A DNA stretch of 64,000 bases, from the NCBI RefSeq assembly GCF_011493005.1, contig NZ_CP049156.1, forward strand, positions 992,001 to 1,056,000, read 5' to 3'. This document shows positions 1,264 through 17,935 of this stretch, one piece after another; positions within the stretch are counted from its first letter, which is position 1, and every line of letters starts with the position of its first letter. Origin of the DNA: Caballeronia sp. SBC1 (GTDB lineage Bacteria; Pseudomonadota; Gammaproteobacteria; Burkholderiales; Burkholderiaceae). The translations under genes and the position numbers were made by a program. The notes under the pieces are model-generated. The model was not told the origin of the DNA. It did not search any database and saw nothing but the letters and a program-made list of their open reading frames with translations.

Positions 1264-1564
1264 ATCGTGGTGCGGCGCTCAAGACTCACTCGCCGGACGA
1301 ATTGGCGGTGTGAAGCGCTTGGCTATCAAGGTGCGGAATTTGAGGCGAGGAGTTTGAAGCAGAGGTCTGCAGACAAGCCGGAATGCTGGTTTTTGGCGGA
1401 AGCGGTGTCCGCCATAACAGGAATTCATCGGAATATACCGGAATAACGTTAAGCCTTTTCCAATAAGGCTTTCGTAAATGCATTGTCCGCTGCGTACCGG
1501 GATGGTAGGATCAAATCCTGAAATGTATGGCGGGTACGATGATGGGTTTACGGGAGCAGTCGAA
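1264..1564. other. Chromosome/element junction upstream of the integrase
   Basis: About 300 bases without a gene. They contain the left 14-bp att repeat at 1394-1407 and then the integrase leader. Bases left of 1394 should be the old downstream flank of the tRNA-Ser gene. The left repeat also lies inside a local inverted repeat, GGCGG at 1395-1399 with CCGCC at 1409-1413. No convincing promoter was picked out. Confidence 0.5.
1394..1407. repeat. attL candidate (14-bp direct repeat)
   Basis: Exact copy of the tRNA-Ser 3' end (TGGCGGAAGCGGTG). Identity stops on both sides, so the core is 14 bp. It lies next to the integrase gene and would be the displaced original tRNA 3' end left by integration. 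Confidence 0.8.
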
Positions 1565-2797
1565 ATGCCGAAGGTAGCTAAAGAGCTTGGGGCGCTGGCG
1601 GTGTCCCGACTTACTCAAGAAGGAATGCACCCTGTCGGCAAGGTGGCGGGGTTATACCTGCAGGTAACCGGTGCTAAATCGCGTTCGTGGATCTTGCGCG
1701 TTAAGGTGGGTGACCGCCGGCGCGAGATCGGGCTCGGCGCTTTTCCTGCAATCTCCCTCGCTGATGCGCGCTTAAAAGCTCAGTTCGAGCGCGACAAAAT
1801 CAGAACTGGCGTCGACCCTATCCTTGAGCGTCGTGAAGCTGCGAGTCGCCTTAAAGCAAGCCAAGATCTGGAAATGACGTTCGAGGCTTCCGCCAAAAAG
1901 TTTATGGAAGCGAAGTCTTCCGAATGGAAAAATCCGAAACACGGCGATCAGTGGCGTAACACGCTGGAAACCTACGCTTATCCGTTCATCGGACGGCTCT
2001 TCGTTCGCCACATTGCCCGCGATCACGTGATGCAAGTTCTCGATCCGATCTGGCTAACTAAAAATGAAACCGCATCGCGCCTTCGCGGCCGCGTCGAGGC
2101 AATTCTTAATTGGTGCAAGGTGAAGGGTTATCGTTCGGGCGAGAATCCGGCAACCTGGCGTGGCAACTTGGAAACCCTGCTGTCGAAACCGTCAAAGGTT
2201 CAGAAGGTCCGTAACCATCCGGCGCTTCCGTTCTCGGAAATGGGCACGTTCATGCAAAACCTCCGAAAGATCGATGCCGTCGGCGCTCGATGCTTGGAGT
2301 TTGCGATCCTGACGGCTGCTCGCTCCGGAGAAGTTCGCGGCGCCCGCTTCAGTGAAATCGATCGAGAGACAAAGGTTTGGCGCGTGCCGGGCGAGCGCAT
2401 GAAGGCTAAGAAAGAACACCGCGTGCCGCTTTCAGAAGCTGCATTTGCCTTGATCGAAAAGATGCCTCAATCCGAAGATGACGGACTGATATTTCCGAGC
2501 CCACGTGGCAAGGTGCTGTCTGACATGACGTTGCTCATGATCGTTCGGCGTATGGGCGCTGATGCCGTGCCTCATGGCTTCCGGAGCACTTTCCGCGACT
2601 GGGCCGGAGAGATTACGAACTATCCTCGCGAGCTGGCCGAGGTCGCGCTTGCACACGTGAAGGGCGACGCCACAGAGGCAGCTTACTGGCGCAGCGACAT
2701 CCTGGAAAAGCGCCGGCGCATGATGGATGATTGGGCGCGTTTCATTGCGGTACCGATGCCGAAGGGGTCCGTAATCCCACTTCACAAACAAGCATGA
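1565..2797 (+). CDS. P4-type tyrosine integrase
   Basis: A site-specific tyrosine recombinase of 410 residues that should integrate and excise this element at tRNA-Ser. The N-terminal part (about 1-90) is the arm-binding domain of P4-like integrases, with LYLQVTGAKSRSWILR and IGLGAFPAISLADAR. The catalytic domain shows Arg253 (TAARSGEVRG), His337-x-x-Arg340 (PHGFRSTFRDW), His364 (LAHVKG) and the nucleophile Tyr374 (AAYWRSD), so it appears intact. I start at the ATG at 1565 because GGGAG lies just upstream; the longer frame from 1478 adds 29 residues unlike the family. The stop overlaps the next gene's start (ATGA), so the two are coupled. Length is normal for the family. Confidence 0.95.
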   Translation: MPKVAKELGALAVSRLTQEGMHPVGKVAGLYLQVTGAKSRSWILRVKVGDRRREIGLGAFPAISLADARLKAQFERDKIRTGVDPILERREAASRLKASQDLEMTFEASAKKFMEAKSSEWKNPKHGDQWRNTLETYAYPFIGRLFVRHIARDHVMQVLDPIWLTKNETASRLRGRVEAILNWCKVKGYRSGENPATWRGNLETLLSKPSKVQKVRNHPALPFSEMGTFMQNLRKIDAVGARCLEFAILTAARSGEVRGARFSEIDRETKVWRVPGERMKAKKEHRVPLSEAAFALIEKMPQSEDDGLIFPSPRGKVLSDMTLLMIVRRMGADAVPHGFRSTFRDWAGEITNYPRELAEVALAHVKGDATEAAYWRSDILEKRRRMMDDWARFIAVPMPKGSVIPLHKQA

Positions 2798-3396
2798 CCG
2801 ACACAACTCGCACCGCGATCGAGGCGGCCTTTCGGAAACTTGAGTTGCTTCCGGGCGTCGAATCTCAGATTTCTACAATGACGGACATGCTTGTGCCGCT
2901 ATACGGCGGCGATAGGCATCCGTTTCCTGCTCACCTACGCGTTAAAGATCGCAAAACAGCTAACCTGGAAATCGACAAGATATCTAGCGTTGCTAATAAG
3001 CTAGCGCTTCTCTTGGACGACCTTTCAGAGCCATCGATAGATGCCTTAGCTGACAGTGGGCTCCTTCAAATCATCCACCACGATCAACTTTCTGCAATCC
3101 TAAAACAAGTTGCCACAATCGCAAGGAAAGCTGATTTATCAAAGGCTGCGAAAACGGGAGATCGAGGGCCTGCGAATCATCTCGCAAAAGGAATTGCATC
3201 GATTCTTGCGCACGGCTTCGAGACATTGACTGGCAACGTACCGACCCTCGTTACACCCGCTGATACAAGACAAAAGAAGTACAGTCCTTTCATTACCTTG
3301 GTCGGCGACGTGTTCTCCGCTCTTAATATCGATGCTAAGCCTGAGGGATATGCAAAAGCTGCGAAGGAAAGTTATCGGCCAAAAGCCGAGAAATAA
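2794..3396 (+). CDS. Hypothetical protein coupled to the integrase
   Basis: A 200-residue protein whose ATG overlaps the integrase stop codon (ATGA), so it is translationally coupled to it. It is mostly helical by composition, with no signal peptide or membrane segment, and the codon use is less GC-rich than the housekeeping genes nearby. I recognise no family. The coupling hints at a role in element maintenance or excision control, but that is inference only. Confidence 0.7.
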   Translation: MTDTTRTAIEAAFRKLELLPGVESQISTMTDMLVPLYGGDRHPFPAHLRVKDRKTANLEIDKISSVANKLALLLDDLSEPSIDALADSGLLQIIHHDQLSAILKQVATIARKADLSKAAKTGDRGPANHLAKGIASILAHGFETLTGNVPTLVTPADTRQKKYSPFITLVGDVFSALNIDAKPEGYAKAAKESYRPKAEK

Positions 3397-3480
3397 CCTC
3401 CTTTCGATTTAACGACTCCAAGTCTCTAAATTCGGTCATGTGCTCCGGGCAGTTCCGGAGCGGTTCACTTGAGGTGAAAC

Positions 3481-3684
3481 ATGACCGAGCAATACCGCAC
3501 TTCTCTCGCAATTCTGCGACGCAAACAAGTCGAAAATGAAACCGGGCTTGCCCGTTCGACGATCTATGACCGCATGAAGGATGGCACTTTTCCGCCGGCG
3601 ATCAAGATCGGCGTGAAGGCTGTTGGTTGGAGAGCCGGTGACATCGACAGATTCCTCGCGAACCCTGCTGGATTCAGGGCATAA
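3481..3684 (+). CDS. AlpA-family phage transcriptional regulator
   Basis: A protein of 67 residues with the AlpA/excisionase-type winged helix: RRKQVENETGLARSTIYDRM, then DGTFPPAIKIG and a W-R-x-GDID-x-F motif. Proteins of this family bind DNA near integrase genes and activate or direct excision in P4-like elements. GAGGTG lies at a good distance from the ATG. Its place just downstream of the integrase fits that role. The family is clear; the target promoter is not known. Confidence 0.9.
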   Translation: MTEQYRTSLAILRRKQVENETGLARSTIYDRMKDGTFPPAIKIGVKAVGWRAGDIDRFLANPAGFRA

Positions 3685-3696
3685 GGGGAAGCGACG

Positions 3697-4053
3697 ATGA
3701 CCACCAGAAACAACAAGGGGCACGCTGGCAAGAGCGCACCCCCAAAAAAGACCACCGAGAACGATTCTAAGCAGAAGCCGGCTCGGTTGCAAGACATGAG
3801 CAGCGCCGCGCAGCGGAAACGCGTTCTCGAATACCTGCGTGCCTCGCCGCAGACCACATACAGCCTTCGCGCCCACGGCATCTCGCACCCTGCACAGCGG
3901 GTTCGTGAGCTGATCTGCATTGATGGCTACCTCATCAACAGCGACCCCGTAGTGGCGGTCGACAGCGACGGCTACAGGCATTCGCGCGTTGCTCTCTATT
4001 CGCTCGGTGGCGAGCCCGATACCCGTGACCTCTTTGATCTGGAGGTCGCGTGA
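3697..4053 (+). CDS. Helix-turn-helix domain phage protein
   Basis: A protein of 118 residues. The first 35 are a Lys/Ser/Thr-rich tail, probably disordered. Residues about 38-80 (AAQRKRVLEYLRASPQTTYS and PAQRVRELICIDGYLI) form a winged-helix-like domain of a type common in proteobacterial prophages, where it is predicted to bind DNA. It lies 12 bases after the AlpA gene and 3 bases before the next gene, so the three look co-transcribed. AGGGGA precedes the start. Function beyond DNA binding is unknown. Confidence 0.72.
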   Translation: MTTRNNKGHAGKSAPPKKTTENDSKQKPARLQDMSSAAQRKRVLEYLRASPQTTYSLRAHGISHPAQRVRELICIDGYLINSDPVVAVDSDGYRHSRVALYSLGGEPDTRDLFDLEVA

Positions 4054-4056
4054 TGT

Positions 4057-4521
4057 ATGGCCAAAGAAGACAAGAACTGGAGCGGCGTAGCACATGTGCG
4101 CATCCGGCTCGACATTCTGCACTCACCCGCGTGGCGCACGCTCAGCTTCACGGCGCGCGCGCTGTTCATGGACATGCGTGCCAGTCTGCGATCGACAAAC
4201 AACGGCGACATCAACGCAGCGCTGGGAACGCTGTCTCACAAGGGCTGGACCTCACGCACGACGATCCTAAAGGCCGTCGCGGAGCTGACCGCATTGGGGT
4301 TCATCGCCAAGACCAGGCAGGGCGTGGGCGGCCCGACGACAGGCTCGTGCAGCCTTTTTCGCTTTACCGACGTGCCAACGTTCGAGCAACCGCGGTTAGG
4401 GGTGAGCGCTTGCAAGGCCACGTTCGAGTACTTGGTGTTCAAAACGCTCGACGAGGCGGAGCAAGCGCTGCGGGATCTGGCGGCAAGCGAGGCAAAAGCC
4501 AAGGCCTCGAAAACAAAATGA
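4057..4521 (+). CDS. Winged-helix-like protein followed by its own direct repeats (copy 1)
   Basis: A protein of 154 residues with an N-terminal helical domain (VRIRLDILHSPAWRTLSFTA) and a winged-helix-like segment around residues 55-105 (LSHKGWTSRTTILKAVAELT, then LGFIAKTRQGV). The plan resembles small replication-initiator or regulator proteins of integrative elements. GGAGG lies at 4039-4043. Five copies of a CAGATTCTGGACTCGA-type motif begin four bases after the stop. The gene at 15620-16096 has a similar plan and its own, different repeats. I infer that the protein binds the repeats; whether as replication initiator, autoregulator or both cannot be told here. Confidence 0.7.
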   Translation: MAKEDKNWSGVAHVRIRLDILHSPAWRTLSFTARALFMDMRASLRSTNNGDINAALGTLSHKGWTSRTTILKAVAELTALGFIAKTRQGVGGPTTGSCSLFRFTDVPTFEQPRLGVSACKATFEYLVFKTLDEAEQALRDLAASEAKAKASKTK

Positions 4522-4525
4522 CCCG

Positions 4526-4698
4526 CCAGATTCTGGACTCGACCTGTTCAGATTCTGGACTCGATCTATACAGATTCTGGACTCGATGCCATTTATCGCG
4601 TTCATTTTCTGGACTCGATAAAACGGCTCAAAGCCTTTCTGTTTATGGCTTGGACCCGGTTTCGGCCCATTTCTCCATCGAGTACAGATTCTGGACAC
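4526..4698. repeat. Five iteron-like repeats downstream of winged-helix gene 1
   Basis: Copies start at 4526 (CCAGATTCTGG, an 11-base odd palindrome), 4549, 4571, 4605 (TTTTCTGGACTCGA, weaker) and 4685 (CAGATTCTGGACAC). Four of them continue as ACTCGA. The spacing is irregular (about 23, 22, 34 and 80 bases). The motif differs completely from the one behind the second winged-helix gene. Confidence 0.8.
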
Positions 4699-4753
4699 CT
4701 TTACTACTACCAACAGAGAGTGCGATTCCTGTTGGCCGGGCGGAGGGGGCAGC

Positions 4754-6381: not shown

Positions 6382-6567
6382 ATGGACGAACGATTGTGGT
6401 GTGTGTGGGTGGACGGCGTAGTGCAGGGCATCTACCCGCGAGGGATGGCGTGGGACTTTGCAGAAAAGGCACGCCAGCAACAGCCTGAGTCGAGCGTCGC
6501 CATGGTTAGGTGCGATTCGACATTGCAGCCTGTCCCGGGCTGGATATTGAAGTCCGAGGGGGACTAA
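6382..6567 (+). CDS. Small hypothetical protein (61 aa)
   Basis: The ATG at 6382 follows TTGGAG at 6370-6375. The product begins MDERLWCVWVDGVVQGIYPR and has three tryptophans. It resembles short phage accessory proteins by size and context only. The stop is two bases before the GTG start of the hub-like gene, suggesting co-translation with it. Confidence 0.6.
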   Translation: MDERLWCVWVDGVVQGIYPRGMAWDFAEKARQQQPESSVAMVRCDSTLQPVPGWILKSEGD

Positions 6568-6569
6568 CC

Positions 6570-7592
6570 GTGGCAAACCAATTCGGCCGCAAGGCTTCAC
6601 TCATTGTCAGTTCCGGTACAACCGGACTCGAATTGTCGGAGTTACGCTTCGCCTTCAAAACGGAGAATTCAGAAGCGCAGACACCGAACATTATGCGTGC
6701 GCGCATTTACAACCTGAAGAAAGAAACCGCAGCGAAGATAGGCGGCGAGTTCAATATGATCACGCTTCAAGCGGGGTACGAAAACGGCAACTTCGGGATC
6801 ATATTTCAAGGCACGATTAAACAGACTGCAACTGGCCGTGAGCGCAATGTCGATTCCTATGTTGACGTCTGGGCCGCTGACGGGGATGACTGGTACAACT
6901 TCGCGGTAATTAGCCTAGCACTGAAAGCCGGGCAGACGCCGGCGCAGATTATCACGGCGATCCAAAGCTCTCCGTCCGTCAACGGAGTTCCTGTCGTGAA
7001 TTTCGCCGGCGATGCGACGGAACTCATCGCCGGGGCCGCTGCCGGGACGCAACAGGCGCTATCGCGTGGCAAAACGATGTTCGGAATGAGCCGCGAGTAC
7101 GCCCGTGACTGGGCGAGCAAGTACGGCTATAGCTGGTCACTACAGAACGGTCAGTTTGTCGTAGTACCAATCACCGGATATCGGCCTGGTGAGGCCGTTG
7201 TGCTGTCGTCCACCACGGGGCTCATCGGAATCCCTGAGGCCACGGCTGATGGCGTCAAGGTTAGAGCGTTGCTTAACCCATTAATCCGCATTGGCTGCCT
7301 GGTGCAGATCGCTCAAGGCGATATCAATCACATCACAATGCAGCAGCAGGGCCTGAGCTATAACCCGTCGACGCCCGCCGTAGCTGGGTTGGCGACTGCG
7401 CAGGGTTTCTATCGGGTGATGACAGCAGAGTTCGAAGGCGATACACGGGGAAATGCCTGGTACGTCGATCTCATCTGCCTTGCCGTCGATATATCGGCGC
7501 CGGATCAGAACAACTCCGTATCGGCAACGGGCCTGACGCAGGGACCGGTAGAGCAGCGTCAGCCCGACGGAACTTGGAAGGCGGTCACTTGA
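6570..7592 (+). CDS. Phage baseplate/tail hub-like protein
   Basis: A protein of 340 residues from a GTG two bases after the preceding stop. The segment RIYNLKKETAAKIGGEFNMI and the following ITLQAGYENGNFGIIFQGTI are typical of phage tail hub proteins of the gp27/gp44 class, in which a beta-rich domain measures a path through an injected field of modules; QTPAQIITAI and a later beta-rich SYSWSLQNGQFVV-like segment also fit. It would sit at the centre of a baseplate. It stands without its usual neighbours (tape measure, lysin, spike), which is odd. The assignment rests on motif recall and is moderate. Confidence 0.52.
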   Translation: MANQFGRKASLIVSSGTTGLELSELRFAFKTENSEAQTPNIMRARIYNLKKETAAKIGGEFNMITLQAGYENGNFGIIFQGTIKQTATGRERNVDSYVDVWAADGDDWYNFAVISLALKAGQTPAQIITAIQSSPSVNGVPVVNFAGDATELIAGAAAGTQQALSRGKTMFGMSREYARDWASKYGYSWSLQNGQFVVVPITGYRPGEAVVLSSTTGLIGIPEATADGVKVRALLNPLIRIGCLVQIAQGDINHITMQQQGLSYNPSTPAVAGLATAQGFYRVMTAEFEGDTRGNAWYVDLICLAVDISAPDQNNSVSATGLTQGPVEQRQPDGTWKAVT

Positions 7593-10075: not shown

Positions 10076-10315
10076 ATGACAAGCGCACTTTCGAGCGCGG
10101 GCGTGGCGCCAGAGGTCGAACACTTTGACCGGCTGCCCGACGCGGCTCACGTAGACGTGGGAGTGGTAGCGGCCATCTACGGCATCTCCGTTGCCACTGT
10201 TAAACGCCGCGTCAAAGACGGCAAGCTACCGGCGCCGCACGAGATCTGCGGCATGAAACGCTTCAAGGTCGGTGACCTGCGCGCCCACGTCCAGGGGGAT
10301 CGCGCATGCCCATAA
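10076..10315 (+). CDS. AlpA/MerR-like DNA-binding protein
   Basis: A protein of 79 residues with VVAAIYGISVATVKRRVKDG, then KLPAPHEICGMKRFKVGDLR, the helix-turn-helix and wing of AlpA/excisionase-like small regulators. The ATG at 10076 is chosen over a start six codons earlier because the upstream codons are atypical. The end overlaps the tail-spike start by 10 bases, so the regulator and the spike are translated from one message. It may control the tail-spike operon. Confidence 0.75.
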   Translation: MTSALSSAGVAPEVEHFDRLPDAAHVDVGVVAAIYGISVATVKRRVKDGKLPAPHEICGMKRFKVGDLRAHVQGDRACP

Positions 10316-12438
10316 TCGGCGAACAGCTTAAGCAGTTCCCATCGGCCGCGCCGACGCAAGACGCGGATTTGCTTTACACCTCACAAAGTGGGTCGGAAGC
10401 CGCGACTCCCGCCTCGCAGCTTGCTGCCTATGTCAACGCGAAGGTCAATCCGGGCAATCTCCCATCCAGAAATACGCTTACCGGATCTGAAAAGCTGGCG
10501 ATTCTGCAAGCTGGTGCGTTGGTCGAAGCGACGGTCAACGATCTGACCATCACTAACGCCACCCGCGAGACCTTTACGGTCGGATCTGGCTTCGCATCGG
10601 GCGCGTCATCAATCACGCTCGCGGGTACCTACGGGTCAGTCAACAATATCCTCGTGTTGTTCGACAACACGATCCAGACCGATTGTGCGCTCGTTGGCCA
10701 AGTTCTCTCTTTTAATCCCACGGTTCCTGCCGGTGTGCAGCAGATCGTCGTAATCGGTGGCCAGTCGCGCACGATTGGCGCGCCTAGCGCTGGAACAGTG
10801 ACGGCGCCCACGATCGCGCCTGGAGCCGTTACCGCACCCGCCATCGGGCCGTCGGCAGTCACTGCTCCCGCGCTCGCGGCTTCCGCAGTAGTCGATGCGT
10901 CCGTTGCTGCCGGCACGAAGCTCTATAACCGCATCATCAACGAGATCAACGTCTGCGATCCGCCTTTTAATGCAGATCCCACGGGTGTTGCGGATTCATC
11001 GGCCGCCTTTCAAGCCGCGATTAATCTCATTGAGGCATCGGGCAAAGCGGGCGTGATTTACGTCCCGCGCGGGTACTACACCGTCTCCACTCAACTGGCG
11101 ATGGATAGATCCACCATATCGACGAACGGCACCGTCAGCTTCCGCGGCGCTGGCTCCGATGCTACGCGCATCACCTATACCGGAACCGGCAACACAGCGC
11201 TCTTTTATGTCTCGGGCAACTCTGGCGCTGGCGGTCCGACCACGTACATGAAATTTTCCGGGATGACCCTTTTGGGGACCGGGCAAGTCGGTACGGCGCC
11301 GTTCCTGACGCTCTTGTGCTCGTTCTTCCACTATGAGGATCTGCACATCGAGGGTTTTGACTACTGCTTCTACGGGCAGGACATCGACCATACGCTGTTC
11401 CAGATGGTTACCTGGCGGTTCAACCTTCGCGGCTTCTTCGCGCAGCAGAACCCGACTCCGACCGCAAACAGCACGTGCCCGAACCAGTTGACCTTTGTTC
11501 AGTGTCAGTGGGGGGTGAACTCGGCCTATGCGGTTGACCTCGTCATGGGCGCCGGAAATGTCTTTATCGGATGCCAGTTCGAGGAAAACGGCGTGGCCGG
11601 GCCGGCCGGCTTCGGTGTGCAGCTAACTAACTCGTCGTATCAAGGTGGACCGGCCGCGGCCTTCTATGGCTGCTACTTCGAATCGACCAACGGCATCGCC
11701 GACGTTATCCTCGTCAATATCGCGACAAACCTCACCCCACCGATCACTGATGCGACGTATGTCTTTAGCGGCACGTCGTTCAATCGCGCCAACCCAGCCA
11801 GTTTTGCGACAAACAGCATACTCACCAACTTCGGCCCGCAGAGCGTCGTGGGTCAGCAGATACTCATTCTGACCGGCTGCACGTTCAAGGACTACAACGC
11901 CTACGTTCCGAGCGGCACGCGTCCGTACATCAACTTTAGCGGCACGCAGACACAGAATAAGAACAACTTCATATCGTCAGGGTGCGTCTACCAAAATGCG
12001 CTCGAAGCTCCGACGGCAGTTCAAAACTCGAACAAGTGCTACGTCGAGATCGGAAAGCTTGCGAATCAATCCATCCCGAACGCGACGCCAACGGCCTGGT
12101 TGATAGACACGATCGCAACCGGATTTTCTTGGGCGACGTCGATCTCCAGCAATGCGATCACCATCCCAGAGCCTGGCTGCTACAGCATCTCAACCAATCT
12201 GGTATTCACTGGCGCCGTGAGCGGGGTAAGCAGCCTTTCCATCCTCAAGAACGGCATTGCCATCGGTTACGGAGAAGCGACCGGCAGCGGAATCGTTGCA
12301 GCGCATTGCATGAAAACCATGTCGGCCGGCGACGTCATTACCGTCTCGGTCACTCAATCGTCGGGCTCGGCCGCAACGGTAGCGGGAAGCGCCAGCGCGA
12401 ACTCTTACATCGTCCTCACCAAAATGATTGACGGCTAA
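10306..12438 (+). CDS. Phage tail spike with pectate-lyase fold
   Basis: A protein of 710 residues. The N-terminal 150 residues are a phage-type attachment domain. Residues about 160-205 hold a repetitive Thr-Ala-Pro stalk (VTAPTIAPGAVTAPAIGPSA). From about 210 (NADPTGVADSSAAFQAAINL) begins a right-handed beta-helix of the Pectate_lyase_3 superfamily, which in tail spikes binds or cuts surface polysaccharide. The last 120 residues (GCYSISTNLVFTGAVSGVSS) look like a C1q/TNF-type jelly-roll trimerisation domain. The stop overlaps the next ATG. It is the clearest virion gene of the element and determines receptor range; enzymatic activity is not shown by any catalytic residues I can point to. 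Confidence 0.85.
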   Translation: MPIIGEQLKQFPSAAPTQDADLLYTSQSGSEAATPASQLAAYVNAKVNPGNLPSRNTLTGSEKLAILQAGALVEATVNDLTITNATRETFTVGSGFASGASSITLAGTYGSVNNILVLFDNTIQTDCALVGQVLSFNPTVPAGVQQIVVIGGQSRTIGAPSAGTVTAPTIAPGAVTAPAIGPSAVTAPALAASAVVDASVAAGTKLYNRIINEINVCDPPFNADPTGVADSSAAFQAAINLIEASGKAGVIYVPRGYYTVSTQLAMDRSTISTNGTVSFRGAGSDATRITYTGTGNTALFYVSGNSGAGGPTTYMKFSGMTLLGTGQVGTAPFLTLLCSFFHYEDLHIEGFDYCFYGQDIDHTLFQMVTWRFNLRGFFAQQNPTPTANSTCPNQLTFVQCQWGVNSAYAVDLVMGAGNVFIGCQFEENGVAGPAGFGVQLTNSSYQGGPAAAFYGCYFESTNGIADVILVNIATNLTPPITDATYVFSGTSFNRANPASFATNSILTNFGPQSVVGQQILILTGCTFKDYNAYVPSGTRPYINFSGTQTQNKNNFISSGCVYQNALEAPTAVQNSNKCYVEIGKLANQSIPNATPTAWLIDTIATGFSWATSISSNAITIPEPGCYSISTNLVFTGAVSGVSSLSILKNGIAIGYGEATGSGIVAAHCMKTMSAGDVITVSVTQSSGSAATVAGSASANSYIVLTKMIDG

Positions 12439-15619: not shown

Positions 15620-16096
15620 ATGAGCGACCGCTCAAACCGCGCCAAGACGGCTAAATCAAAGCGTGATGGCCCCGGCGGGGCCGTCATGCTTATTCCTCAT
15701 GTGGTTCTCTTCAGCGACGCTTTCCTGTCCCTCTCGGGCAACGGCGTGAAGCTACTCGTCGACATTACGCAGCAATACAACACTCGGAACAACGGAGCAC
15801 TTCTTTGTTCATGGCGGTACATGAACGAAAAGCGCGGCTGGCGTTCGCCGGAAACGTTGAACCGGGCTCGTCTGGAGCTGATGGAAAGGGATCTGATTTT
15901 CCAGACTGTTCAAGGGCGTATGCCGAACAAGGCGAGCTGGTATGCGATCACGTGGGCAGCGCTCGACAAGTTGGACGGGCTAGACGTGTCTCCAGCCGTC
16001 TTCCCGCGCGGCGCCTATGCGCGCTGGAAGCCATCCACCAAGCCCGATCAAAAAACAGAGTCTACTGTACGGAAACCGTATATGGTAGCCGCCTGA
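15620..16096 (+). CDS. Winged-helix-like protein followed by its own iterons (copy 2)
   Basis: A protein of 158 residues. MLIPHVVLFSDAFLSLSGNG, then VKLLVDITQQYNTRNNGALL, and a helix-turn-helix-like stretch (MNEKRGWRSPETLNRARLEL to MERDLIFQTVQGRMPN) recall small replication-initiator or regulator proteins. Four palindromic repeats of a TACGG-type motif begin in its last codons. Plan and position of the repeats match the gene at 4057, with unrelated repeat sequence, so each protein probably has its own DNA specificity. Whether it initiates replication of the excised element or regulates itself is not shown. Confidence 0.72.
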   Translation: MSDRSNRAKTAKSKRDGPGGAVMLIPHVVLFSDAFLSLSGNGVKLLVDITQQYNTRNNGALLCSWRYMNEKRGWRSPETLNRARLELMERDLIFQTVQGRMPNKASWYAITWAALDKLDGLDVSPAVFPRGAYARWKPSTKPDQKTESTVRKPYMVAA

Positions 16097-16192
16097 TAGA
16101 TACGAAAACCGTACATGGGGCTTCTCTCATATGTACGGTTCCCGTATCTATCTGTGGCATTCGAGAGCCATGCCTAAGTACGGTTTTCGTAC
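16068..16192. repeat. Four palindromic iterons at the end of winged-helix gene 2
   Basis: TACGGAAACCGTA at 16068-16080, TACGAAAACCGTAC at 16101-16114, GTACGGTTCCCGTAT at 16133-16147 and GTACGGTTTTCGTAC at 16178-16192. Each is a pair of TACGG/CCGTA arms around an A- or T-rich centre. The first lies inside the coding region; the others follow the stop. Confidence 0.85.
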
Positions 16193-16221
16193 ACCTTCTA
16201 GTATTGCCACTCCATACCGAT

Positions 16222-16728
16222 TTAAGCACCGCCCATCCGAACGACCTTGGCGCGAATGCGCCGAATGATGCTCTTGTCGGCCGCAGCAAAGACCTCGCAC
16301 TGGTGAGGGGTGCTCTCGCCCAGCAGATGCCGCCTCAATCCCTCAGGAAAGGCGAAACCACGCGTGTTGCCGGGGCCATTTGTGCTTCCTCGGCAAAGCG
16401 GACAAAGAGCACGCTCCCCATGTCCATAAGCTCCCATCTGCAACGCTGGCCGCGGGTCAGCAGCATTTAGCACTCGATCGAGTGCCTGACGTCTCCATGC
16501 CACTAGGTCTTGATGATCCTCCAGCCCCTCATGACCATCCAGTAAGCCCTGGACGTCCATTAGTTCGATGATCGCGTAGCGCGACATCGCCAGATCGCTT
16601 TCTAGCGAACGGTTATCTAACGCAAGCCTCTTGTTTTCGGTCTCAAGCCTAGCCAGTTCACGTTCCAGCTTGAGGAAGTCGGCGAGTTTAAGTTCGCGAG
16701 GTTTTCGGACGGTCCGAGTCACGGCCAT
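16222..16728 (-). CDS. Coiled-coil and zinc-finger-like hypothetical protein
   Basis: A protein of 168 residues on the minus strand, running towards the iterons of gene 2. Residues about 15-55 (LADFLKLERELARLETENKR) predict a coiled coil. The C-terminal half has a CPLC motif and a later single Cys near HQC, a possible incomplete zinc-binding site with two histidines nearby (RRHLLGESTPHQC). ATG at 16728 is preferred over a GTG at 16743. No family named; nucleic acid binding is possible. Confidence 0.6.
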   Translation of the reverse strand: MAVTRTVRKPRELKLADFLKLERELARLETENKRLALDNRSLESDLAMSRYAIIELMDVQGLLDGHEGLEDHQDLVAWRRQALDRVLNAADPRPALQMGAYGHGERALCPLCRGSTNGPGNTRGFAFPEGLRRHLLGESTPHQCEVFAAADKSIIRRIRAKVVRMGGA

Positions 16729-16800
16729 GGCGCACCTGGGCACGAATAATGGGCGCTCAGATTAGCTCAAAACTGGCGACGGTTGATGCTGGAAATCACA

Positions 16801-17805
16801 CATAGGTCCGGTTACCGTTTTGGTAGCCGTTCCTGATCTAGTAACCCCCCTTATATCCCCCCTTCGAAGGCCCATCGATGCCCCTTGGTTGTCAAATCAA
16901 CAACCCCAGTTGTCAAAACGACAACCGTTGCCGAATCAGTAACCCATGGCTTACCCATAGGTTACCCGTGGGATAACGGTGAGTTCACGGTGAGTTCACG
17001 CGTCACGCTGCGTCACTGACGCGTCACCGTTACGTGTAACGCTACGTGCGTTGCAGTGCGTTGCATTTCGTTGCGACAGACTCTGTCGGCGCTCTGTCAC
17101 AGAACGCCCACCGACGGTGGAAGGTGCCATTTCTAATTCTGCGTCGGCGCAGTTTTGCGCTCAGTGGCATAACAACCCCCAACGGGGGAAGACGTCTCCC
17201 CAAAGTCGGGGCGGCCGGGATTCTAATTACGGAGATTTCCCCAAATCGGGGGAAAAGGTTTGGGGAGGGTGTCGTTGCCCAGAACGAGGCTGGGCAAACG
17301 CCAGATCTGGCGGCAGATCTAACTACCGGAAATCCGGCAGTTCGGCCGATCCTTCAAGGAGGGCTCAAGGAGTCGTCATGGAATCCTTGAAGCAATGCTT
17401 GGAGCATCGAGCTAAGTCAGATTTGAAATCCCGATCGGCGTTTGAAACGCTGTTGGAGTTTTACGACTTGATCGCAGAAGTCGCGTTTCAAATTGCACTT
17501 GCTTAGCAGATGCCGAGCACTGGCAAGGCACATGCGAGCATGGTGCTAGAACCGGGAATTCCCGCTAATCAACTCGGCAGGCTCAAAGCCGGCACGGTCC
17601 CCCGACTGGGTGACCTCGGAGACGCATCGGTAGACGGTGATGCGTCTACACCGATGCCTACCGGATGCCTACCTTTGGTGAAGGCAAGAGTGCCGTTTTT
17701 GGGAGGCTTTGGCGATGGAACAGTGCCGTTTTCGGTACTGTTCGCGGAGCGCAGTTTTGCGCCTGAACAACACTTTTCTGATTGGCGGGATGTTTGGCGG
17801 GTAGA
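16801..17805. repeat. Array of more than twenty different short palindromes and tandem repeats
   Basis: About 1 kb with no convincing gene except a 42-aa frame. Units, mostly present once or twice, include GTTGTCAAAACGACAAC (16909-16925), tandem GGTGAGTTCAC (16978-16999), GCGTCACTGACGC (17010-17022), tandem GTGCGTTGCA (17046-17065), GACAGACTCTGTC (17075-17087), TCTGTCACAGA (17093-17103), CCACCGACGGTGG (17108-17120), GCGCAGTTTTGCGC (17147-17160 and 17749-17762), TTTCCCC/GGGGAAA (17236-17255), TGCCCAG/CTGGGCA (17276-17296), CGCCAGATCTGGCG (17299-17312), CCGGAAATCCGG (17326-17337), CATGCGAGCATG (17531-17542), CGGGAATTCCCG (17553-17564) and AGACGCATC/GATGCGTCT (17620-17647). Arm sequence changes from unit to unit. 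Several share the arms-plus-A/T-centre plan of the iterons behind the two winged-helix genes. Confidence 0.85.
17378..17506 (+). CDS. Possible small protein (42 aa) inside the palindrome array
   Basis: The ATG at 17378 follows CAAGGAG. The product is MESLKQCLEHRAKSDLKSRS, then AFETLLEFYDLIAEVAFQIA and LA, an amphipathic helical peptide. The frame contains a 10-bp perfect inverted repeat (TTTGAAACGC at 17441-17450, GCGTTTCAAA at 17483-17492) and its start lies in the loop of another (TCAAGGA/TCCTTGA, 17365-17390). It may be a real small gene with structured mRNA, or chance within the array. Confidence 0.4.
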   Translation: MESLKQCLEHRAKSDLKSRSAFETLLEFYDLIAEVAFQIALA

Positions 17806-17845
17806 GATCGAAAGTTTGCTGTGAGCCTTTTAGAGTAAGGCTTCG

Positions 17846-17859
17846 TGGCGGAAGCGGTG
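17846..17859. repeat. attR candidate (14-bp direct repeat, in the tRNA-Ser 3' end)
   Basis: TGGCGGAAGCGGTG, identical to 1394-1407. It covers the CCA, discriminator and 3' acceptor strand of tRNA-Ser, a standard target for P4-like integrases. Confidence 0.8.
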
Positions 17860-17935
17860 AGATTCGAACTCACGGACGAGTCACCCCGTCGCTAGTTTTC
17901 AAGACTAGTGCCTTAAACCGCTCGGCCACGCTTCC
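17846..17935 (-). tRNA. tRNA-Ser(UGA)
   Basis: On the minus strand, the acceptor stem GGAAGCG pairs with CGCTTCC. The anticodon loop CTTGAAA gives anticodon TGA. There is a long variable arm (class II, as for Ser) and an encoded CCA at 17848-17846. The 3' end is the right attachment site of the integrative element; the tRNA is intact after integration. Confidence 0.95.

Follow-up and report, generated by a model that had tools for sequence, protein, structure and literature searches.

An array of palindromic units matching phage replication-initiator iterons in an integrated element of Caballeronia sp. SBC1

The integrated element described here carries, beside its tRNA-Ser integration site, a dense array of short palindromes, in which six sets of units match iterons located inside the replication-initiator genes of other phages and prophages. 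As judged by sequence comparison, the first set is of the lambda-O type; the other five were matched in genomes of the same genus. Arrays that draw on a common vocabulary are also carried by other phage contigs, namely L069, L070 and L358.

The integrated element and its palindrome array

The window, i.e. the whole stretch of 64,000 nucleotides that was analysed, contains an integrated element of 16.4 kb, bounded by a 14-bp copy of the end of a tRNA-Ser gene (at 1394) and by the tRNA-Ser gene itself (17846-17935). Its features are as follows.

1394..1407, no strand: left att site, a 14-bp copy of the tRNA-Ser 3' end (TGGCGGAAGCGGTG, at both 1394 and 17846)
1478..2797, plus strand: tyrosine integrase gene of the element (Pfam integrase domains; PHROG integrase)
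3481-3684: excisionase-like gene
4057..4521, plus strand: winged-helix gene 1 (A1 profile match, E 9.8e-17; no Pfam or PHROG match)
4527..4699, plus strand: tandem own sites behind winged-helix gene 1 (CAGATTCTGGACTCGA three times, and two variants)
6510-7592: baseplate hub gene
10306-12438: gene for a pectate-lyase-like protein
15620..16096, plus strand: winged-helix gene 2 (family member; protein without a Pfam or PHROG match)
16068..16191, plus strand: four own sites (TACGNNNNNCGTA) behind or across the end of winged-helix gene 2
16222-16743, minus strand: ORF, left neighbour of the array (no Pfam or PHROG match)
16844..17770: the whole palindrome array, read as heterologous initiator sites from its palindrome density and unit matches
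17846..17935, minus strand: tRNA-Ser, the integration site (ARAGORN)

The sequence-only reading, an earlier interpretation made without database searches, had placed the array beside an att site. This was correct, as the 14-bp tRNA-Ser end at 17846 was found again at 1394, where it adjoins the integrase gene. The array occupies the gap between the minus-strand ORF and tRNA-Ser. No terminase was found among the window proteins scanned (sets of 9 and 5), whose matches were the integrase, the excisionase-like protein, the baseplate hub and the pectate-lyase-like protein.

The high density of palindromes claimed in the same reading was borne out by comparison with 200 dinucleotide shuffles. Counting arms of at least 5 and spacers of at most 7 bases, we found 31 palindromes in the region 16801-17805, against 6.97 ± 2.61 (maximum 15) in the shuffles; with arms of at least 6 the numbers were 13 and 1.9, and with arms of at least 7 they were 6 and 0.46. 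The core of the array (16880-17360) accounted for 22 palindromes (shuffles 3.1, maximum 10), and the right half (17360-17845) was weaker, with 9 (shuffles 3.1, maximum 9). When the 64-kb window was divided into 500-bp tiles, the seven richest in palindromes all overlapped the array (best tile 23, best tile outside the array 10, window mean 4.65 ± 2.5). The words quoted in the earlier reading are present in the sequence, and its description of the palindromes as unrelated holds in part: many distinct arm sequences occur, but many of them appear as two or three related copies. The unit sets that can be read in the array comprise GTTGTC units, AACCCATGG units, two copies of GGTGAGTTCAC, three GCGTCAC and three CGTTGCA-like units, CCCC units, and others.

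The array does not resemble REP/BIME-like repeats, as a search of its own genome gave a single match at E 0.001 (one further match, of 22 bp, has E 0.08). Nor does it resemble a CRISPR array: unit sequence changes along it, and there is no constant direct repeat. Structured RNA was considered and dropped, Rfam giving 0 matches at gathering score in 16100-17845.

Two ORFs run over the array (17051-17503 and 17510-17821), neither with a PHROG match. The former contains a 42-codon frame (MESLKQ..., 17379-17504), which begins at an array unit and may be a small gene. At the left end of the array, the stretch 16844-16886, with CCCTTATATCCCC..TTCGAAGGCCCATCGATG, was found again in two genomes of the genus (L002/L024 and L003/L025), next to a small histidine-rich gene; the similar GGCATCGATGGGCCTTCCGAGGGG lies in an array-like region of L290 (about 6440-6470).

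The sequence-only reading had derived the palindromes from a single family of winged-helix proteins whose sites follow the stop codon. The gene-specific sites of this family are real. The family of winged-helix gene 2 is present in 35 of the 399 genomes of the order and lies in integrated elements (window 15620-16191; L005, L006, L007, L009, L012 and others). Many of its genes have about four copies of a gene-specific site overlapping or following the stop codon, the last copy being followed by a ACACCTTTCTAGATATACCATC-like stretch, and the site sequence varies from gene to gene; some members read (e.g. L008, L047 and L051) have no own-type sites at the stop codon. Yet the element's own winged-helix sites are missing from the array, where the best matches (12/17 and 10/16 letters) are not above chance (means of 11.2 and 10.3 in 15 shuffles). 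Winged-helix sites were therefore rejected as the source of the array, in which six sets of words match iterons of other initiator types (lambda-O, DUF1376, HTH_36/DnaT and others). The absence of own-initiator sites above chance also argues against a copy-control locus of the element itself, the winged-helix genes being likely initiators.

Winged-helix gene 2 probably encodes the element's own initiator, as judged from its relatives and a structural model. The winged-helix relatives in L069 and L072 gave weak PHROG matches, to a DnaD-like helicase loader (E 1e-5) and a replication initiation protein (E 2e-4). An AlphaFold2 model of the gene 2 protein (pLDDT 82.7) retrieved nothing below E 0.001 in a fold search; the ten best fold matches, all weak, included the DnaD N-domain and Rep/initiator structures alongside ordinary winged-helix regulators.

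Array units and iterons of phage initiator genes

The matched and unmatched units of the array are distributed as follows.

16888-16904, 16909-16925 and 16927-16943: three lambda-O-type iterons, matched in the O gene of L117 (0/300 shuffles; L117 O-like by PHROG)
16941..16969: AACCCATGG units, matched in the linker of the same-genus initiator L538 (0/300 shuffles; PHROG)
17001..17031: three GCGTCAC units, matched in the linker of the same-genus initiator L549 (0/300 shuffles; PHROG)
17047..17074: three CGTTGCA-like units (TGCAACG on the other strand), matched in the same-genus initiator L504/L517 (0/300 shuffles; PHROG)
17074..17345: palindromes without an initiator match (GACAGACTCTGTC, CCACCGACGGTGG, GCGCAGTTTTGCGC, CCCC units, TTGCCCAG, CGCCAGATCTGGCG, CCGGAAATCCGG)
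17391..17410: ATGCTTGGAGCAT unit, matched in a linker in L202 and in the same-genus L147 (PHROG primosomal protein)
17630..17649: GTAGACG unit, with similar words in the L069 and L358 arrays; no initiator match found
17686..17743: CAGTGCCGTTTTCGGTACTG units, matched in linkers of L521 and L522 (same-genus initiators) and of L142 (a replication protein of an Enterobacteria phage) (0/300 shuffles; PHROG)

The window stretch 16888-16930 is identical to the O gene in L117 at 41 of 43 bp, and 17394-17410 agrees with the L202 linker at 17/17 and with L147, from the same genus, at 14/14 positions. Window stretches were locally aligned with initiator linkers and compared with 300 shuffles, the pairs having been picked after the searches. 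All 300 shuffles were beaten by the lambda-O units (L117, L115), AACCCATGG (L538), GCGTCAC (L549), TGCAACG (L504, L517), ATGCTTGGAGCAT with L202, and CAGTGCCGTTTTCGG with L521, L522 and L142; for ATGCTTGGAGCAT with L147 a single shuffle reached the score. The units of 17074..17345 were treated differently, GACAGA, the CCCC units and CCGGAAATCCGG being aligned with one or two chosen genes each and the rest covered by the whole-array searches. Among these single alignments GACAGA failed (134/300 shuffles reached the score), as did the CCCC units (264 and 253 of 300), and CCGGAAATCCGG was marginal (9/300). GCGTCAC did not beat the shuffles with L393 (11/300). All eight proteins checked against PHROGs (L117, L147, L504, L505, L521, L522, L538 and L549) matched families of replication initiation, primosomal or replication proteins.

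Phage genes of the lambda-O family (PF04492; in PHROGs, replication initiation O-like) were reached through the word GTTGTCAAAACGACAAC; they carry 4-8 such iterons in mid-gene. In IMG/VR the word occurs in 26 stretches, of which five lie in O-type genes (L084, L085, L094, L090 and L093) and one is the L069 array; nine are beside genes resembling XRE-type regulators (probably one related group), six are upstream of a YqaJ-like gene, and five are single others. The iterons of the DUF1376 genes of the genus are GATGCTCCAAGCAT (L147, with similar ones in L148), TGTCCC (L149) and CGCCCCCCGAT (L150, L151). A lambda-O origin is enclosed or adjoined by its cognate initiator gene, which is not the case in the window, whose genome gave no PF04492 match at E 0.001.

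Pattern scans (at least 120 stretches each, 80 loci read) pointed to similar families. For TGCAACG, 72 ORFs contained a match and 49 were taken to PHROGs; at least 12 matched a replication-protein family and 11 matched DUF1376, the other large group being tail-fibre and collagen-like proteins. For GCGTCAC, 64 ORFs contained a match and 47 were taken to PHROGs, where the families richest in named members were replication initiation proteins (5, 3, 3, 3 and 3 members, possibly overlapping).

At E 1e-5 neither the window array nor the L069 array matched plasmids or phages, and the L072 array did not match phages. When E-values of up to 10 were allowed against 50,697 phage records, the window array matched 20 records in four groups. 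The Enterobacteria match lies in the linker of a gene annotated as a phage replication protein, and the mycobacteriophage match (Tweety) just past the stop codon of a replication initiation protein gene (2 bases of overlap); the matches in the Gordonia group and a Lysinibacillus phage are in other genes. The L070 array gave seven matches, two of them in initiators by PHROG. These window and L070 matches count only together, because at E-values of about 1 to 4 they are not significant singly. Of the 39 matches of the L069 array to the same records, only one was below E 1e-3, namely that to Burkholderia phage Bcep176, in its primosomal protein gene (E 2e-4). The L072 array (E up to 10) matched 7 records, none a named initiator.

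In 58 same-genus genomes (E up to 0.2) the window array matched 43 places besides itself, with about 12 expected by chance. As many as 28 of the 43 correspond to one 22-bp query stretch, for which the sole context read (L523) is a GMP-synthase-like gene. Two of the six loci read in context are initiators with the iterons in the linker (L521 and L522, orthologous); the other four, which are not initiators, are an intergenic TGCGTTGCA repeat, a NuoF-like gene, the GMP-synthase-like gene just named and a repetitive gene. Another of the places, G039:C5 (E 0.11), corresponds to the L504 initiator gene. Among 14 loci read for the L070 array, three places fall in two initiator genes (L504/L517, and L505, the DUF1376 gene of L149) and 11 are not initiators; for the L358 array the corresponding figures are four initiators (L538, L543, L549, L540) and seven others in 11 loci, ten of which were read and one known by its place. 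Because initiator genes are few per genome (PF04492 was found in 3/58 and DUF1376 in 5/58 same-genus genomes), these shares look far above chance when set against gene frequency. The family phrog_2447 was not found in the 58 genomes, and in 150 relatives the L358 array gave two matches at E 0.001, neither of them an array. One same-genus genome has a lone intergenic TGCGTTGCAT triple (L501, about 1500-1530), apparently between two chromosomal genes.

Sharing of 13-mers was measured in 43 initiators fetched by family alone. Taken together, the window, L069 and L070 arrays shared 12 13-mers with the linkers (shuffles 1.9 ± 1.8; 0/200 reached this number), 7 with the rest of the ORF (shuffles 3.1) and 16 with the flanks (11.7); the window alone shared 4 with the linkers (0.8; 6/200). 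In 80 more initiators the three arrays shared 16 with the linkers (2.6 ± 1.9; 0/100), 12 with the rest of the ORF (2.8) and 19 with the flanks (22), and in these linkers the window alone shared 6 (0.8; 2/100) and L069 alone 3 (0.8; 9/100). A harder control consisted of 87 real one-kb tiles of non-array DNA. Here the window had 7 shared 13-mers (reached by 7 tiles), L069 had 5 (18 tiles), L070 had 12 (1 tile), and the two halves of L358 had 5 (18 tiles) and 8 (5 tiles). The sharing is thus strong against shuffles and only moderate against real DNA. A test limited to palindromes gave a clearer result. Arms of the window array were found in 71/503 linker palindromes against 240/3215 in flanks (p 2e-6), and arms of the four arrays in 199/503 against 804/3215 (p 2.5e-11), both p values being too small because related sequences, which are not independent, were kept in. 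The linker/flank ratio was 1.58 for the arrays and 1.03 ± 0.10 for 60 real non-array arm sets (maximum 1.30).

Related arrays and the state of their units

In a density scan of the collected loci, the IMG/VR contigs L070 and L069 ranked at the top, with arrays of about 1 kb. The window and L069 arrays share 30 identical bases around GTTGTCAAAACGACAAC, and also CACTTGCTTAGCAGATGCC, while the window and L070 arrays share GCGCTCTGTCACAGAAC; by eye, AACCC, TGCAACG and GTAGACG words are also common to the window and the L069/L070 arrays. The third contig, L358, was found through the TGCAACG pattern scan, and its array of 1.8 kb lies behind an RNase H gene; the order of unit types in this array, again by eye, follows that of L069 and L070. 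Long open frames cross this array (2778-3959 and 3965-4510; 394 and 182 codons) and in part read as initiator-linker-like peptide strings. A coding function was considered and dropped, in view of the lack of a plus-strand ORF of 70 codons within the L069 array and of PHROG matches for the window ORFs.

Besides a winged-helix gene of its own, L069 carries genes for an integrase, an anti-repressor and a terminase. Its array is 66% identical to that of L070 (with 211 gap columns), against 79-89% for the four flanking genes, and the two arrays differ by clusters of units gained or lost between conserved flanks. The symmetry of the O-type units is well preserved: GTT-N11-AAC units have 5.21 of 6 arm pairs in the four arrays (n=24) and 5.15 in ten O genes (n=60), compared with 3.46 in chance flank matches (n=37). 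This symmetry, together with the faster divergence of the L069 and L070 arrays than of their flanking genes, suggests that at least the O-type units have not decayed and that the whole array turns over. The AT-rich unwinding region that stands next to the iterons in a lambda-O origin is not present in the window array. The minimum GC content in 40 bp is 0.40 in the window array and 0.35-0.40 across the four arrays, compared with 0.25-0.30 in seven of the ten O genes (the remaining three have 0.35, 0.38 and 0.40, the gene with 0.40 being truncated).

Other palindrome-dense regions, partly with other words, lie near winged-helix genes or in viral contigs (L072 4600-5420, L074-L081, L041 501-900 and L290 5401-6560). 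For the L072, L080 and L041 regions, 12-mers were not enriched in the first initiator set (7 vs 4.6 in shuffles), and 14-mers were enriched in the second (6 vs 0.3). Their membership among the arrays is not proven.

Possible function of the array

On balance, we favour reading the array as a set of heterologous phage origin sites that act as decoys and titrate the initiators of rivals. The array would consist of iterons from the replication origins of several phages, kept by an element that has no use of its own for them. When a phage enters or is co-induced, its initiator would bind the array, and such binding would be unproductive because each class has few iterons and the array lacks the AT-rich unwinding stretch seen in most O genes. 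The bound initiator would be titrated or handcuffed, and the first initiation at the rival's single origin would be delayed; when infection begins, each chromosome of the host would contribute one array copy, and the invader would have one origin. The array would thus amount to a multi-specific immunity element made of DNA only. Of the three functions proposed in the sequence-only reading, such a decoy fits best, with titration as the presumed step, and an array of left-over 3' tails is less likely, because the units with matches derive from linkers in the middle of genes for several initiator types and are found again in other phage contigs, by eye in a common order.

Several observations speak against decoys. 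Many unit types have no initiator match, many of the genome matches read in context are not initiators (4/6 for the window, 11/14 for L070, 7/11 for L358), and single-copy arrays may be too weak to titrate. The best argument against them may be drawn from lambda. Passages of PMC3349717 report that plasmids with oop plus the iterons block rep-lambda phages and that the AT-rich part is not needed; iterons alone, however, were not inhibitory, oop transcription being also required, and the authors argue there that handcuffing cannot explain the effect.

The main rival to the decoy reading, which we consider unlikely, is a promiscuous origin that lets the initiators of many helper phages replicate the element, so that it is amplified on their infection or induction. 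The same initiators would bind the same units, and the lack of a terminase among the window proteins scanned suggests that the element may depend on helpers. However, each class has few iterons, most O genes have a more AT-rich stretch than any in the array, and L069, given its own integrase, anti-repressor, terminase and winged-helix genes, should need no helper origin yet bears an array. Slightly less probable still is a mosaic of relics, i.e. functionless fragments of replication modules left by repeated recombination, or patches of homology that guide module exchange. The gain and loss of unit clusters between the conserved flanks of L069 and L070 would be expected of such a mosaic, but the O-type units of the arrays are as symmetric as those of O genes, several initiator types contribute, and L069, L070 and L358 appear by eye to have a common order of unit types.

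Regulatory sites of the element or the host, with every palindrome serving as operator for a transcription factor of its own or the whole array forming a structured RNA of many hairpins, seem improbable. The L069 array lies immediately upstream of the anti-repressor gene, and nine of the 26 IMG/VR stretches with GTTGTCAAAACGACAAC are beside XRE-type-like regulator genes, which probably form one related group. Against this, in the window it is tRNA-Ser that follows the array, no Rfam family was detected in 16100-17845, and the matches that span several iterons sit within initiator genes.

As a generalization of the decoy reading, which we put forward more tentatively, temperate phages and integrated elements may carry compact libraries of rival-origin iterons that keep their symmetry, are updated as units are gained and lost, and provide protein-free, multi-specific immunity via initiator titration. 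If so, phages would wage war on one another by DNA sites alone, without protein or guide RNA, one array acting against many replication modules. The diverse iteron and initiator specificities of phages would then be easier to understand, and the unit content might record the phages met by a lineage. No literature on such an array was found in open-licence PubMed Central (titles and abstract starts), and even without a decoy function we know of no description of an array of heterologous phage-origin sites.

The closest parallel is the Per phenotype of lactococcal phages. According to passages of PMC8965321, phage origin regions cloned in trans give resistant cells, and in TP901-1 and Tuc2009 the replisome organizer binds repeats located inside the gene that encodes it. 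The window array likewise presents phage origin sites in trans, as six of its unit sets match initiator genes of other phages or prophages. Per differs in that elements of one phage are cloned, whereas here a native element would hold the sites of many phages in about 900 bp. Replicative inhibition by lambda oop plus oriLambda plasmids is similar in that iterons without the AT-rich region contribute to the inhibition of rep-lambda phages; as described in the same parts of PMC3349717, it is plasmid-based, also needs oop transcription and has a single specificity. The O-type units of the array are nearly identical to the iterons of lambda O/PF04492 origins, but the genome of the window has no PF04492 gene (E 0.001), and the array has few units per class and no comparable AT-rich stretch. 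PLE satellites are integrated and interfere with phage replication, as the window element is supposed to do; in the portions of PMC7145576 that describe them, they have their own RepA initiator and iterons, and no array of foreign origin sites appears. Like CRISPR arrays, the present array is a compact store of short phage-matching sequences; unlike them, it has no constant repeat, and its units are putative initiator-binding palindromes that would act as DNA.
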